A DNA stretch of 64,000 nucleotides from Candidatus Rokuibacteriota bacterium (GTDB lineage: Bacteria; Methylomirabilota; Methylomirabilia; Rokubacteriales; CSP1-6), in assembly GCA_003220435.1 (NCBI GenBank), contig QHSL01000063.1, positions 62,001-126,000 of the forward strand, read 5' to 3'. The notes beneath the pieces are model-generated. The model did no database searches and was not told where the DNA came from. It saw only the letters and a program-made list of their open reading frames with translations. The position numbers and the translations under genes are program-made. Below, in pieces: positions 51,430 through 55,588 of this stretch (the stretch's first letter is position 1; every line of letters starts with the position of its first letter).

Positions 51430-52199
51430 TCAACGTCTACGCGCTGTGCACCGGCTCCATCGAGCTCGACCGCGCCAGCATGGTATCGGATCTCGAGCCG
51501 GGCCAGCCCTGGACCGTGCCGGTGACGAGCTTTCTCGTGAGCCACCCGCGCGGTAAGCTCCTGTTCGACACCGGCGTGCACTGCCAGGCGCGCCTCGACC
51601 CGCTGACCCGCCTCGGCGCCGAGCGGATGAAGCGGTTGACGGTCAAGTCGCAGGCGGGCGACGACGTGGTGCCCCAGCTCGCGACGCTCGGTCTCCACCC
51701 CGAAGACATCCGCTACGTCGCGAACTCGCACCTGCACTTCGACCACTGCGGCGGCAACGAGTTCTTCCCGCGGGCGACGTTCCTGGTGCAGCGGCCCGAG
51801 CTGGAATCAGCGCGGCGCCCCGGGTTCGTGCCGAGCTACAGCCCGAGCCCCATCGACTTCGACCATCCGCTCGACTACCGGACGATCGACGGCGAGCACG
51901 ACGTCTTCGGCGACGGCAGCGTGATCCTGTTCCCCACGTACGGCCACACGCCGGGGCACCAGTCGTTGCGGGTTCGGTCCGGGAAGCAGGCGGAGATCGT
52001 CTGCGCGTCCGACGCGTGCTACACGCGGGAGAACATGGACCGCGACGTGCTCCCCAAGATCCTCTGGAACGCGTCCGTCATGTCCGAGTCGCTGGCGGCG
52101 CTTCGCAAGCTGCGCGATCAGGCGGGTGCCACCATGTTCTACGGTCACGACCCTGCGCAGTGGCAGGCCACCCCGCGCGCCCCCGCGCCGGTGCTCTGA
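51426..52199 (+). CDS. MBL-fold N-acyl homoserine lactonase family protein
   Basis: GTG start overlapping aroA stop; NSHLHFDHCGGNEFF (HxHxDH), FPTYGHTPGHQSLRVR, CASDACY. Confidence 0.88.
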   Translation: MINVYALCTGSIELDRASMVSDLEPGQPWTVPVTSFLVSHPRGKLLFDTGVHCQARLDPLTRLGAERMKRLTVKSQAGDDVVPQLATLGLHPEDIRYVANSHLHFDHCGGNEFFPRATFLVQRPELESARRPGFVPSYSPSPIDFDHPLDYRTIDGEHDVFGDGSVILFPTYGHTPGHQSLRVRSGKQAEIVCASDACYTRENMDRDVLPKILWNASVMSESLAALRKLRDQAGATMFYGHDPAQWQATPRAPAPVL

Positions 52200-53200
52200 G
52201 CCCGCGCGGCTCGGCCCTCGCGAGCTGGTTCCGCGGCCCGGCGGCCCTCGCGCGGTTCCGGCGCCGGACAGTGGGACGCTCACCGGCCGTGCTCTCGCCA
52301 CGTGGCTCCGGCTGGCGGGCGATCGCGCCCGACTGGGATGCTCTCTTCGACCTGGCCCGCGCCGGCGTGCCGTTTCAGACGGCGGTCGATCGCCGCTACG
52401 ACCGCTCCGGCAACCCCCGGATCCTGCGCCGCGCGCTTCGCGAAGGCCGCACGGTGTTCTTCCCGCAGATCCATCAAGTGCTGCCGCGGCTCGCCCGGCT
52501 GATGGTCGCCTTGCGGGCGGCGTTGCTCGGGCCGGCGCGTGAGGAGTGCTCGTTCCTGTTTGCGGTCGAGGGCCGGGGCCGGGAAGGCCTGGGACTGCAC
52601 CACGACGGCGACGTCGACGCGTTCTGGCTCCAGCTCGAGGGCCGGCGCACCGTGACGATCGGACCGCCGGTCGCGCCACGCACGCCGCTCGATCTGCCGG
52701 ACTCGCTCGCCGCTCGCCGCGGGCGAGGTTGGCGCACGTTCGATCTTCCGCCGGGCTCGCTCTTTCACCTGCCGCCGCGGACGCCGCACCGGGTCGTGTG
52801 CCACGGGCGCTCGCTGGCGATCTCGCTCACGTGGAGGCGCGCGCGATCGGGACGGGCCGCCGGCCTCGCGGCCTGGGACGTCGTTGGCGGGCGAGCCATC
52901 GCGATCCCGCGCCCGGTGCGCGATCGGCTGTGGGTTCAGGTGCCGGTGGTCGCCGGGACCGTGGATCCGCGCCGCGACGACTTCAAGCTATGCTCGGTGG
53001 ACGGCGTGTCGGTGGGTTTGCCGGCCAACCTGCGCCGCTGGGCGACGAGGCTCGCACTGATGCCGTCTCTCCGCCGAGCCGACGTCCCCGCCGTCGCGCG
53101 CGATCAGCTCTTGCGCCATGGGGTCCTGGCGCCGGTCGACCTGCCGCTCGCCGTGCGACCCGAGCGCCCGCGGGAGCTCGACGGCTGGCGTTTCGCCTGA
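52196..53200 (+). CDS. JmjC/cupin-like 2-oxoglutarate oxygenase family protein (start uncertain; GTG 52271 possible)
   Basis: GLGLHHDGDVDAFWLQLEGRRTVTIGPPV...FDLPPGSLFHLPPRTPHRVVC; HxD...H layout. Confidence 0.72.
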   Translation: MSPRGSALASWFRGPAALARFRRRTVGRSPAVLSPRGSGWRAIAPDWDALFDLARAGVPFQTAVDRRYDRSGNPRILRRALREGRTVFFPQIHQVLPRLARLMVALRAALLGPAREECSFLFAVEGRGREGLGLHHDGDVDAFWLQLEGRRTVTIGPPVAPRTPLDLPDSLAARRGRGWRTFDLPPGSLFHLPPRTPHRVVCHGRSLAISLTWRRARSGRAAGLAAWDVVGGRAIAIPRPVRDRLWVQVPVVAGTVDPRRDDFKLCSVDGVSVGLPANLRRWATRLALMPSLRRADVPAVARDQLLRHGVLAPVDLPLAVRPERPRELDGWRFA

Positions 53201-53204
53201 GTGG

Positions 53205-54776
53205 TCAGCTTGCGCCCCGCGCGCGCGTCAGCACTTCGTCGATTCCGCCAGTGAAGTAGAACGCGTCCTCCGGAATGCCGTCGTGCACACCATCGAGAAT
53301 GGCCGTGCAGGCGGCCAGCGTGTCCGCGCGTGACACGAAGGTGCCCGGCCGCTGGGTGTACGGCTCCGCGATGAAGAACGGCTGGGCGAGGAACCGGCGC
53401 AGCCGTCGCGCGCGCCCCACGGTCGCCCGCGCAGCCGCGTCGAGGTCCTGCCGGCCCTCGAGGGCGTCGGCCTCGGCGAGACATCTCCTGACGCGCTCGG
53501 CCACGGTCGCGGGCGTCTCGCCGACCACTTCGGGCATGAGCCAGCGCGATCGCGATGCCACCGGATCGATGGCCGGCCAGATGTGCGCGGCCGCGATGGC
53601 GCGCGACATCGTGATGACCGTGTCGAACGCCTCGCGATGCTCCGGGTGGTCGGCGACGAAGAAGAACGTCTGGATCCCGCCGAGCCCGAGCGTGAAGCCC
53701 TCGTCGCGGACGTTCCGGAGGTCCTCGATGCGCGCGCCGGGAACGAACGTGAACAGGGAGAGCTCCGACGTGGCCAGACGCCGGACGAGCTCCTCCAGGA
53801 GCACGGTGGTGCCCACCCGCTCTCCGCCGAGCAGCGCGACCACGCCGCCGCGGACGATCGGCAGCAGGAGGTCGATCACCTTGATGCCGGTTTCGAGGAG
53901 CGTGGGGCGGCCGGCCGGCGTGGGCGGCACGAGCCGGTCGAGCGCCGAGCGCATCAGCGGCTCGCCGAGCGGCGCGTTCATCGGCTCGCCGCGCTCGGCG
54001 ATCTGCATCCCCGGCGTCAGCTCGGCCGCCGCGTCACGCGCGATCGCGCGCACCCGCCCGTCGGGGAGGTGCTGCACGACCTGGACCGTGACGGCGCGGC
54101 CGGCCTCGTCGGCGGCGATCAGGGTGCTGAACAGCTCCGGCGGGCCCGCCGGCTCGAAGCGTGCCTCGATCAGCGGGCCCTCGGCACGCACGATTCGGCC
54201 GATCCGCGCGGGGAAGTCTTCGGGCAGCGGGCGGTCGCTCAGCGCGTCCTTCATGATGACGAGGATCCTCCTCTTGAGCCGTCGGCGAGCGGCGTGCAGG
54301 CGGTTGTTCACGGTGGTCGCGGGCAGATCGAGGAACGCCGCGATCTGCGCCTGCGAGCACTCGTGGACCCAGCGCAGCACGGCGGGCTCGCGGAGGCCGT
54401 CGGGAAGGTCGGCGAGCGCGGCCAGCGCCACGAGGCGACGACGGCCGGCGTCCATTCGCTGGTCGGCCGACGGGCCGTCGCCCGGAAGGTGCTCGGCCTC
54501 CGCCAGCGACTCGAGGCGCCGTGCGCGAAGCGCGTGGAGCGCCTGCCGCCGCACGATGCCGCGCAGCCACGCCGGGAAGGCCATGGCGTCGAGCAGACGC
54601 GGGAGGCCGCGCCACGCGGCCACGAACGCCTCCTGCACCACGTCCTTGGCGACGTCGACGTCGTGCACGAGCGCCATGGCCGAGCCGTGGGCGAGACGCT
54701 GGTAGCGCTGGACCAGCTCCGTGAAGCTGTCCACGTCGCCGCCGCGCGCCCGCTCCACCAGGGTCACCAGGTCCAT
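53205..54776 (-). CDS. ECF-like sigma70 factor fused to degenerate F1-ATPase beta-subunit-like domain
   Basis: N-term region 2 YQRLAHGSAMALVHDVDVAKDVVQEAFVAAWRGLPRLL and region 4 LPDGLREPAVLRWVHECSQAQIAAFLDLPATTVNNRLHAARRRLKRR; C-term ARIGRIVRAEGPLIEARFEPAG...LLETGIKVIDLLLPIVRGGVVALLGGERVGTTVLLEELVRRLA...AIAAAHIWPAIDPVASRSR...RARRLRRFLAQPFFIAEPYTQRPGTFVSRADTLAACTAILDGVHDGIPEDAFYFTGGIDEVL (AtpD-like). Confidence 0.9.
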   Translation of the reverse strand: MDLVTLVERARGGDVDSFTELVQRYQRLAHGSAMALVHDVDVAKDVVQEAFVAAWRGLPRLLDAMAFPAWLRGIVRRQALHALRARRLESLAEAEHLPGDGPSADQRMDAGRRRLVALAALADLPDGLREPAVLRWVHECSQAQIAAFLDLPATTVNNRLHAARRRLKRRILVIMKDALSDRPLPEDFPARIGRIVRAEGPLIEARFEPAGPPELFSTLIAADEAGRAVTVQVVQHLPDGRVRAIARDAAAELTPGMQIAERGEPMNAPLGEPLMRSALDRLVPPTPAGRPTLLETGIKVIDLLLPIVRGGVVALLGGERVGTTVLLEELVRRLATSELSLFTFVPGARIEDLRNVRDEGFTLGLGGIQTFFFVADHPEHREAFDTVITMSRAIAAAHIWPAIDPVASRSRWLMPEVVGETPATVAERVRRCLAEADALEGRQDLDAAARATVGRARRLRRFLAQPFFIAEPYTQRPGTFVSRADTLAACTAILDGVHDGIPEDAFYFTGGIDEVLTRARGAS

Positions 54777-54918
54777 TCGCGCCTCCGTTCGTGCACAGCT
54801 TAGTGCCGGGGAGGGCGCGCCGGCTTTGAGGTATTTTGGGGGTATCGCCGCGACTGGAGCGCCCCAAACCGAGGCGATCCTCAAGGAGCTGCGTTCGGCG
54901 TCTCGGTGACGGCGGCAT

Positions 54919-55021: not shown

Positions 55022-55588
55022 ATGGCAGTCGACGTGGCGGCGCCGAGAAGGCTGTTCACCCGTCAGGAGTACCTCCGGATGGCCGAGGTGGGCATCCTCA
55101 AGCCGACCGAACGAGTCGAGCTGATCCGGGGTGAGATCGTCGAGATGTCGCCCATCGGCCGGCGTCATCAAGCGTTCGTCGACAACTTGAACCAGCTGTT
55201 GACCGTGCGCATCGCCGGCCGAGCCATCGTGTCAGTCCAGAACCCAGTCGTGCTCGCCGACGACACCGAGCCAGAGCCCGACCTCAAGATCATTCGCCGG
55301 CGCTCCGTGCCGTACAAAGAGCTCGAGGCGCACGGCAACGACGTGCTGCTGTTGATCGAGGTAGCCGAGACCTCCCTTTCCTACGACCGATCCACCAAGC
55401 TCAGGCTCTACGCTGAAGCCGGGATTGCCGAATACTGGGTTGTCGACTGCTCAGCGGAGAGTGTCGAGGTCCATCGCATGCCCGACGCGAGCGGCTATCT
55501 GGAGATGAACCGTTTCACCGGCGGCGCGCCCGTCAGCCCGCTGGCCTTCCCCGACGTCAGGGTCGCTCTCGCCGAGATCTTCGCGTAG
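55022..55588 (+). CDS. Uma2 family endonuclease (DUF820)
   Basis: FTRQEYLRMAEVGILKPTERVELIRGEIVEMSPIGRRHQAFVDNLNQLL...EPEPDLKIIRRR...VLLLIEVAETSLSYDRSTKLRLYAEAGIAEYWVVD. Confidence 0.94.
   Translation: MAVDVAAPRRLFTRQEYLRMAEVGILKPTERVELIRGEIVEMSPIGRRHQAFVDNLNQLLTVRIAGRAIVSVQNPVVLADDTEPEPDLKIIRRRSVPYKELEAHGNDVLLLIEVAETSLSYDRSTKLRLYAEAGIAEYWVVDCSAESVEVHRMPDASGYLEMNRFTGGAPVSPLAFPDVRVALAEIFA

Follow-up and report, generated by a model that had tools for sequence, protein, structure and literature searches.

ECF41 sigma factors possess a fused C-terminal regulatory domain and no anti-sigma factor, and act on a single target transcript through a conserved promoter motif (PMC3426412, PMC8999054). 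The proximal part of this C-terminal extension is required for activity (PMC3426412). C-terminal extensions that replace the anti-sigma factor are also present in ECF42 (TPR), ECF57 (WD40-like) and ECF238 (CorE, Cys-rich), and ATP synthase is not mentioned in the review of such extensions (PMC8999054).

The gene described here lies in a 64,000-nucleotide stretch of DNA from a Candidatus Rokuibacteriota bacterium (the window) and encodes a real fusion of an ECF sigma factor with an F1-beta-like module, as one gene rather than two. Few enzymes are as conserved as the beta subunit of F1, which normally functions only within the F1 hexamer. Like ECF41, the fusion has a C-terminal extension, no adjacent anti-sigma gene, one conserved motif and about one apparent target. 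The domain of ECF41 is SnoaL-like, whereas the fusion has no SnoaL match in Pfam and carries F1 beta instead; the target of ECF41 is a neighbouring carboxymuconolactone decarboxylase, oxidoreductase or epimerase gene, whereas the apparent target of the fusion is itself. A large or sensory C-terminal extension is shared with ECF42, ECF57 and ECF238, although no ATP-synthase-derived domain is among those described (PMC8999054). A sequence-only reading of the window had proposed the architecture as new, and no description of it was found in the literature searched; it may still have an entry in the main ECF reclassification tables. Because the fusion recurs in several phyla and is preceded each time by one shared promoter-like signal, it appears to be a genuine sensor-plus-switch protein not described before.

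Domain architecture and predicted structure

The gene occupies a single uninterrupted frame of 523 codons on the minus strand (Table 1); the plus-strand frame is interrupted by a stop. The continuous sigma-to-beta frame had been recognized in the sequence-only reading, which named no strand and did not include the catalytic losses, the conserved candidate self-promoter or the wide taxonomic spread described below. The sigma part has the layout of an ECF (group 4) factor, with regions 2 and 4 and without region 1.1 or 3 (Pfam, NCBIfam). Approximately 30 residues separate the two regions, and the helix-turn-helix of region 4 is strongly conserved across the fusion family. Both sigma70 motifs reported earlier are confirmed by Pfam, and the three domain matches then expected, Sigma70_r2, Sigma70_r4_2 and ATP-synt_ab, all lie above the Pfam cut-offs. 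The ATP-synt_ab match in the window protein spans residues 297–358 (E=4e-10). ATP-synt_ab_N at residues 195–259 is below the cut-off for the window protein (E=0.015); the same barrel domain is clear in the homologue from genome G479 (E=1.6e-7). The linker of the window protein reads LPEDF. F1-beta chains in the PDB match the fusion protein down to E=3e-49 (phmmer), and the NCBIfam atpD model TIGR01039 matches in three stretches (E=2e-56), with a score of 191.6 against an equivalog cut-off of 462.85.

Table 1 Features of the sigma–F1-beta fusion gene (window coordinates)
Feature	Residues	Position	Strand	Basis or remark
Whole gene, ECF sigma and reduced F1-beta-like module	523 aa	53205..54776	minus	ATG at 54776; stop ends at 53205
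Sigma-70 region 2	21-87	54516..54716	minus	Pfam PF04542 Sigma70_r2, E=4.5e-13
Sigma-70 region 4	118-167	54276..54425	minus	Pfam PF08281 Sigma70_r4_2, E=3.6e-8
Sigma-beta linker, L[PDS][DE][DE]F motif	177-190	54207..54248	minus	kept in all full fusions
F1-beta N-terminal barrel	191-262	53991..54206	minus	phmmer vs PDB F1 beta; strands in AF2 model
Reduced nucleotide-binding domain	290-404	53565..53909	minus	AtpD alignment; AF2 model
Degenerate Walker A, GGERVGTT for GGAGVGKT	317-324	53805..53828	minus	alignment of fusions
F1-beta C-terminal helical domain, without DELSEED	405-520	53217..53564	minus	phmmer to 1fx0_B and others; alignment
QPFFIAEPYT adenine-side segment, retained		53355-53384	minus	alignment
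Candidate promoter AAAG-N16-GGCAC		54803..54827 (AAAG 54824-54827, GGCAC 54803-54807)	minus	26 nt upstream of ATG

The structure was predicted with AF2 from a 70-row alignment of fusions, AtpDs and ECFs. The resulting model (mean pLDDT 85.7, pTM 0.67) shows a folded sigma part, in which the expected helices are present, followed by a barrel, a small mixed domain and a C-terminal helical bundle. The pLDDT of the C-terminal helical domain is mostly above 90, and the weakest stretch of the beta module comprises residues 350–370, around the deletion scar. An earlier run on eight rows was poor (pLDDT 51.6), and its PDB matches were set aside as structural evidence. Predicted secondary structure and the phmmer homology given above agree with an F1-beta-like three-domain fold.

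A reduced F1-beta module

The beta part was compared with a reference of 75 AtpDs containing 202 invariant positions, and 11 fusions were aligned at the Walker A motif and the nucleotide pocket. In the fusions, 70 of the 202 positions are deleted; of the remaining 132, just 41 survive in 80% or more of the members. The earlier statement that the frame matches most of AtpD thus holds for the homology and overstates its extent. The deleted invariant stretches include the Walker B strand LLFIDN, GERTREG, GQMNEPPG and LQERITST, and the nucleotide-binding domain is shortened by approximately 100 core residues, with Walker B and the catalytic Glu and Arg gone. Scaffold elements (TGIKVID, GG, QP and DP) are retained. 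The phosphate-binding Walker A lysine (K155) is replaced in ten of the 11 fusions, the sole retention being in G479 (GPAGAGKL), Walker B is missing from all 11, and the DELSEED turn is absent. Loss of the lysine and of Walker B argues against normal hydrolysis. As read from the alignment, the beta half is a reduced, catalytically dead pseudo-ATPase, and because of this truncation the module cannot be an ATPase.

The aromatic pocket has fared differently. At the equivalent of E. coli position 331, all 11 fusions have Y or W (W in several); position 404 is matched by F in 10/11, and position 410 by F or Y in 11/11. In F1, these three positions contact adenine. That the pocket survives points to an adenine-containing ligand; the aromatics could also have been kept for folding alone. 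Y331W of the E. coli beta subunit is a classic fluorescent nucleotide probe.

In comparison with AtpD (TIGR01039; 1fx0_B, 6fkf_B, 2qe7_D), homology covers the barrel, the C-terminal helical domain and a portion of the nucleotide-binding domain, with 36–41% identity over aligned columns. The fusion differs in being attached to a sigma factor, in lying outside the atp operon, and in lacking the catalytic residues, the Walker B core and DELSEED.

A putative self-promoter

AAAG followed after exactly 16 bases by GGCAC is found in all 14 upstream regions examined, and ends 19–46 nt ahead of the start in the 12 regions with an assigned start. In 200 dinucleotide shuffles, the best dyad was common to two or three sequences, versus 14/14 in the real set. 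The dyad persists in a thinned set of ten, and is retained in AT-rich genomes with unrelated surroundings. A fixed 16-nt spacing is typical of the −35 and −10 elements of ECF promoters. A sigma-54 reading of GGCAC was rejected: the −12 GC is not constant, and what is fixed instead is AAAG, 16 nt upstream.

The regulon of the window's genome (G000) was searched by pattern matching only, which yielded three occurrences of the strict pattern versus eight for a reversed control, and 13 of the loose pattern versus 30. All other copies of the motif in this genome lie inside predicted coding frames. Because none of them is promoter-like, the likely target is the fusion gene itself, and on upstream conservation we infer that AAAG-N16-GGCAC is a putative self-promoter of the fused sigma factor. 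A role for this motif in controlling the atp operon was rejected, as no promoter-placed copy occurs at ≤1 mismatch in L040.

Genome G003 contains a second AAAG-N16-GGCAC site (C157:18031), 864 nt upstream of the site of its paralogue. This second site (region L026:8032-8260, G003:C157) lies about 20 nt before a frame of about 70 codons with a signal-peptide-like start, MDPAASTIRRILRGLIGLALASIPLAS; the short frame is a possible second regulon member.

Distribution, phylogeny and selection

Co-occurrence of the two domains in related genomes, a check proposed from the sequence, is borne out: the junction is present in 8 of the 95 genomes in the window's class, a patchy distribution confined to one family, and in five genomes outside it. 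The class carriers are G000, G002, G003 (twice), G007, G010, G015, G023 and G026. Two of these nine copies are damaged, that of G015 lacking the C-terminus and that of G026 being frameshifted. A tally of nine class genomes would include a sigma-only match in G017, which was left out. Sampled genomes outside the class were searched with a junction profile, and the five carriers belong to three other groups treated as phyla: G479, from a sample built around a Thermomicrobiales genome; G706, from a five-genome phylum that includes 'Myxococcota bacterium KLAP109'; and G1136, G1182 and G1292, from the phylum to which a record named Bradymonadales DLM2.Bin98 belongs. The G1292 frame lacks region 2. 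No fusion was found in the Acidobacteria-centred and Proteobacteria-centred samples, and such empty samples weigh little. No record in the plasmid collection covers 80% of the fusion protein, the matches listed being AtpDs, and a genome scan with AtpD-like peptide patterns returned ordinary AtpDs only.

In genome G006, a copy (L183, L033; G006:C131) keeps the promoter motif and the first codons and has hardly any of the sigma part left; its flanks are syntenic with those of the copy in G002. The sampled genomes are mostly many-contig draft assemblies, and the damaged copies (G006, G015, G026 and G1292) imply either that the gene is dispensable or that some of these assemblies are faulty. Full-length fusions free of internal stops recur in other genomes, and not as two separate proteins; the fusion is therefore not an assembly accident, and two separate genes are likewise ruled out.

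The beta modules form one clade separate from all AtpDs (support 99/97, and 200/200 bootstrap trees), which is consistent with a single origin; several members have long branches. One supported clade likewise contains the fused sigma domains, together with two other ECFs. The first, in G681, has a GNAT acetyltransferase-like domain as its fusion partner (L222:7207-9021; Acetyltransf_9, E=5e-5, just below the cut-off). The other, in G017 (L132:5025-5654, G017:C109), has an LPKDF-type linker (LLPKDF) and a short tail containing CVCRCG, with CGGCATCTATAAGGGTGAG upstream, a near-match to the −10-like box of the fusion. These sister sigma domains carry an acetyltransferase-like domain and a CVCRCG tail, respectively, where the fusion has F1 beta, and their shared clade suggests a sigma lineage that exchanges C-terminal modules.

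Pairwise dN/dS is 0.10–0.28 for the sigma part, 0.05–0.18 for the linker and barrel (the lowest) and 0.10–0.39 for the rest. As values of 0.05–0.39 span all segments, both halves are under purifying selection.

Genomic neighbourhood

The fusion gene of the window stands alone, convergent with a JmjC_2 gene and divergent from a Uma2 gene that starts at 55022. The JmjC_2 (cupin-type hydroxylase) gene, at 52016-53200 on the plus strand, ends five bases from the sigma-beta stop codon. Neighbours vary between genomes, those scanned being metabolic or unknown, and F1 beta is fused in all intact homologues. No anti-sigma candidate and no conserved neighbour were found beside the fusion gene in the genomes compared, and the gene shows no synteny to atp genes. 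Replacement of AtpD by the fusion is ruled out, since the window's genome carries a genuine atpD elsewhere (C20); this intact gene is adjoined by frames that, by size and order only, are as expected for atpA and atpG. Several relatives possess extra complete-core F1-beta genes besides the housekeeping atpD (L034, L035, L037, L039), some of which resemble alternate or N-type ATPases.

Proposed mechanism and alternatives

We propose, with a probability of about 0.6, that the protein is a one-component, autoregulated ECF sigma factor in which the F1-beta-derived C-terminal half is a regulatory domain replacing a separate anti-sigma factor. By the ECF41 analogy, the F1-beta module is most likely an on-board regulatory domain, and a role as sensor or lid, raised in the sequence-only reading, would fit the precedent of extended ECF sigma factors (ECF41, ECF42, ECF238; PMC8999054, PMC3426412). 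Control of the sigma part by the beta half, the ligand and the sign of that control are all inferences. The beta part would have lost catalysis and preserved the three-domain shape and the aromatic pocket for the adenine ring. Most likely, it would bind a small molecule, with an adenine nucleotide as a plausible candidate; binding would alter the packing of the beta domain on sigma regions 2 and 4, and the altered packing would turn RNA-polymerase binding on or off. Once active, the sigma factor would transcribe its own gene from AAAG-N16-GGCAC, giving positive autoregulation with a very small regulon. A narrower proposal, possible though doubtful, is that the beta half senses the energy state (adenine nucleotides) without hydrolysis, with the ATP/ADP level directly setting one autoregulated promoter.

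The module might instead sense by docking to a protein partner, such as free F1 alpha, another RecA-fold protein or an F1-assembly protein, in which case the sigma factor would report ATP-synthase assembly or be sequestered by it. The most constrained segment, linker plus barrel, includes the crown-forming part in F1, and the window's genome has an intact atpD with atpA- and atpG-sized neighbouring frames; however, DELSEED and approximately 100 residues of the alpha-facing domain are gone, no promoter-placed motif copy lies near the atp operon, and synteny to atp genes is absent, all of which leaves docking unlikely. The specific suggestion of a decoy for F1 alpha (AtpA) is made less likely by the shared core deletion, because it removes much of the surface of beta towards alpha and gamma. 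A constitutive role, in which the module merely stabilises the sigma factor or holoenzyme, receives no signal and leaves control to expression level, would accord with the need of ECF41 for its proximal extension (PMC3426412) and with the strongest conservation being in the proximal linker and barrel of the fusion. We regard it as rather improbable, given that purifying selection in distant groups has kept the entire 340-residue module, C-terminal domain included.

Another sigma factor might read the upstream motif, or a repressor might bind it; the fused sigma factor would then have an unrelated, larger regulon. The support for a self-promoter is upstream conservation, and the second G003 site precedes its short frame at the same distance; against this, the spacing is fixed at the 16 nt typical of ECF promoters, the placement is the same across distant groups and G000 has no further promoter-like copies, and we hold the motif very unlikely to belong to another regulator. 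A sequence without function, whether a decaying chimera or a product of misassembly, would account for the truncated or frameshifted copies in some relatives, but is scarcely credible for a gene whose frame is intact in four or more groups of bacteria, whose dN/dS is low and whose promoter motif is shared.

If the narrower, energy-state reading is true, the catalytic subunit of a rotary ATPase has been turned into a sensor inside a sigma factor, forming a single-protein circuit. The system brings an assay within reach, with one protein, one conserved promoter and a tryptophan at the 331-equivalent position in several members. With the beta half as a regulatory domain, the F1-beta fold would be reusable for signalling: a dead, shortened module serving as the regulatory half of a sigma factor and selected in distant bacteria.
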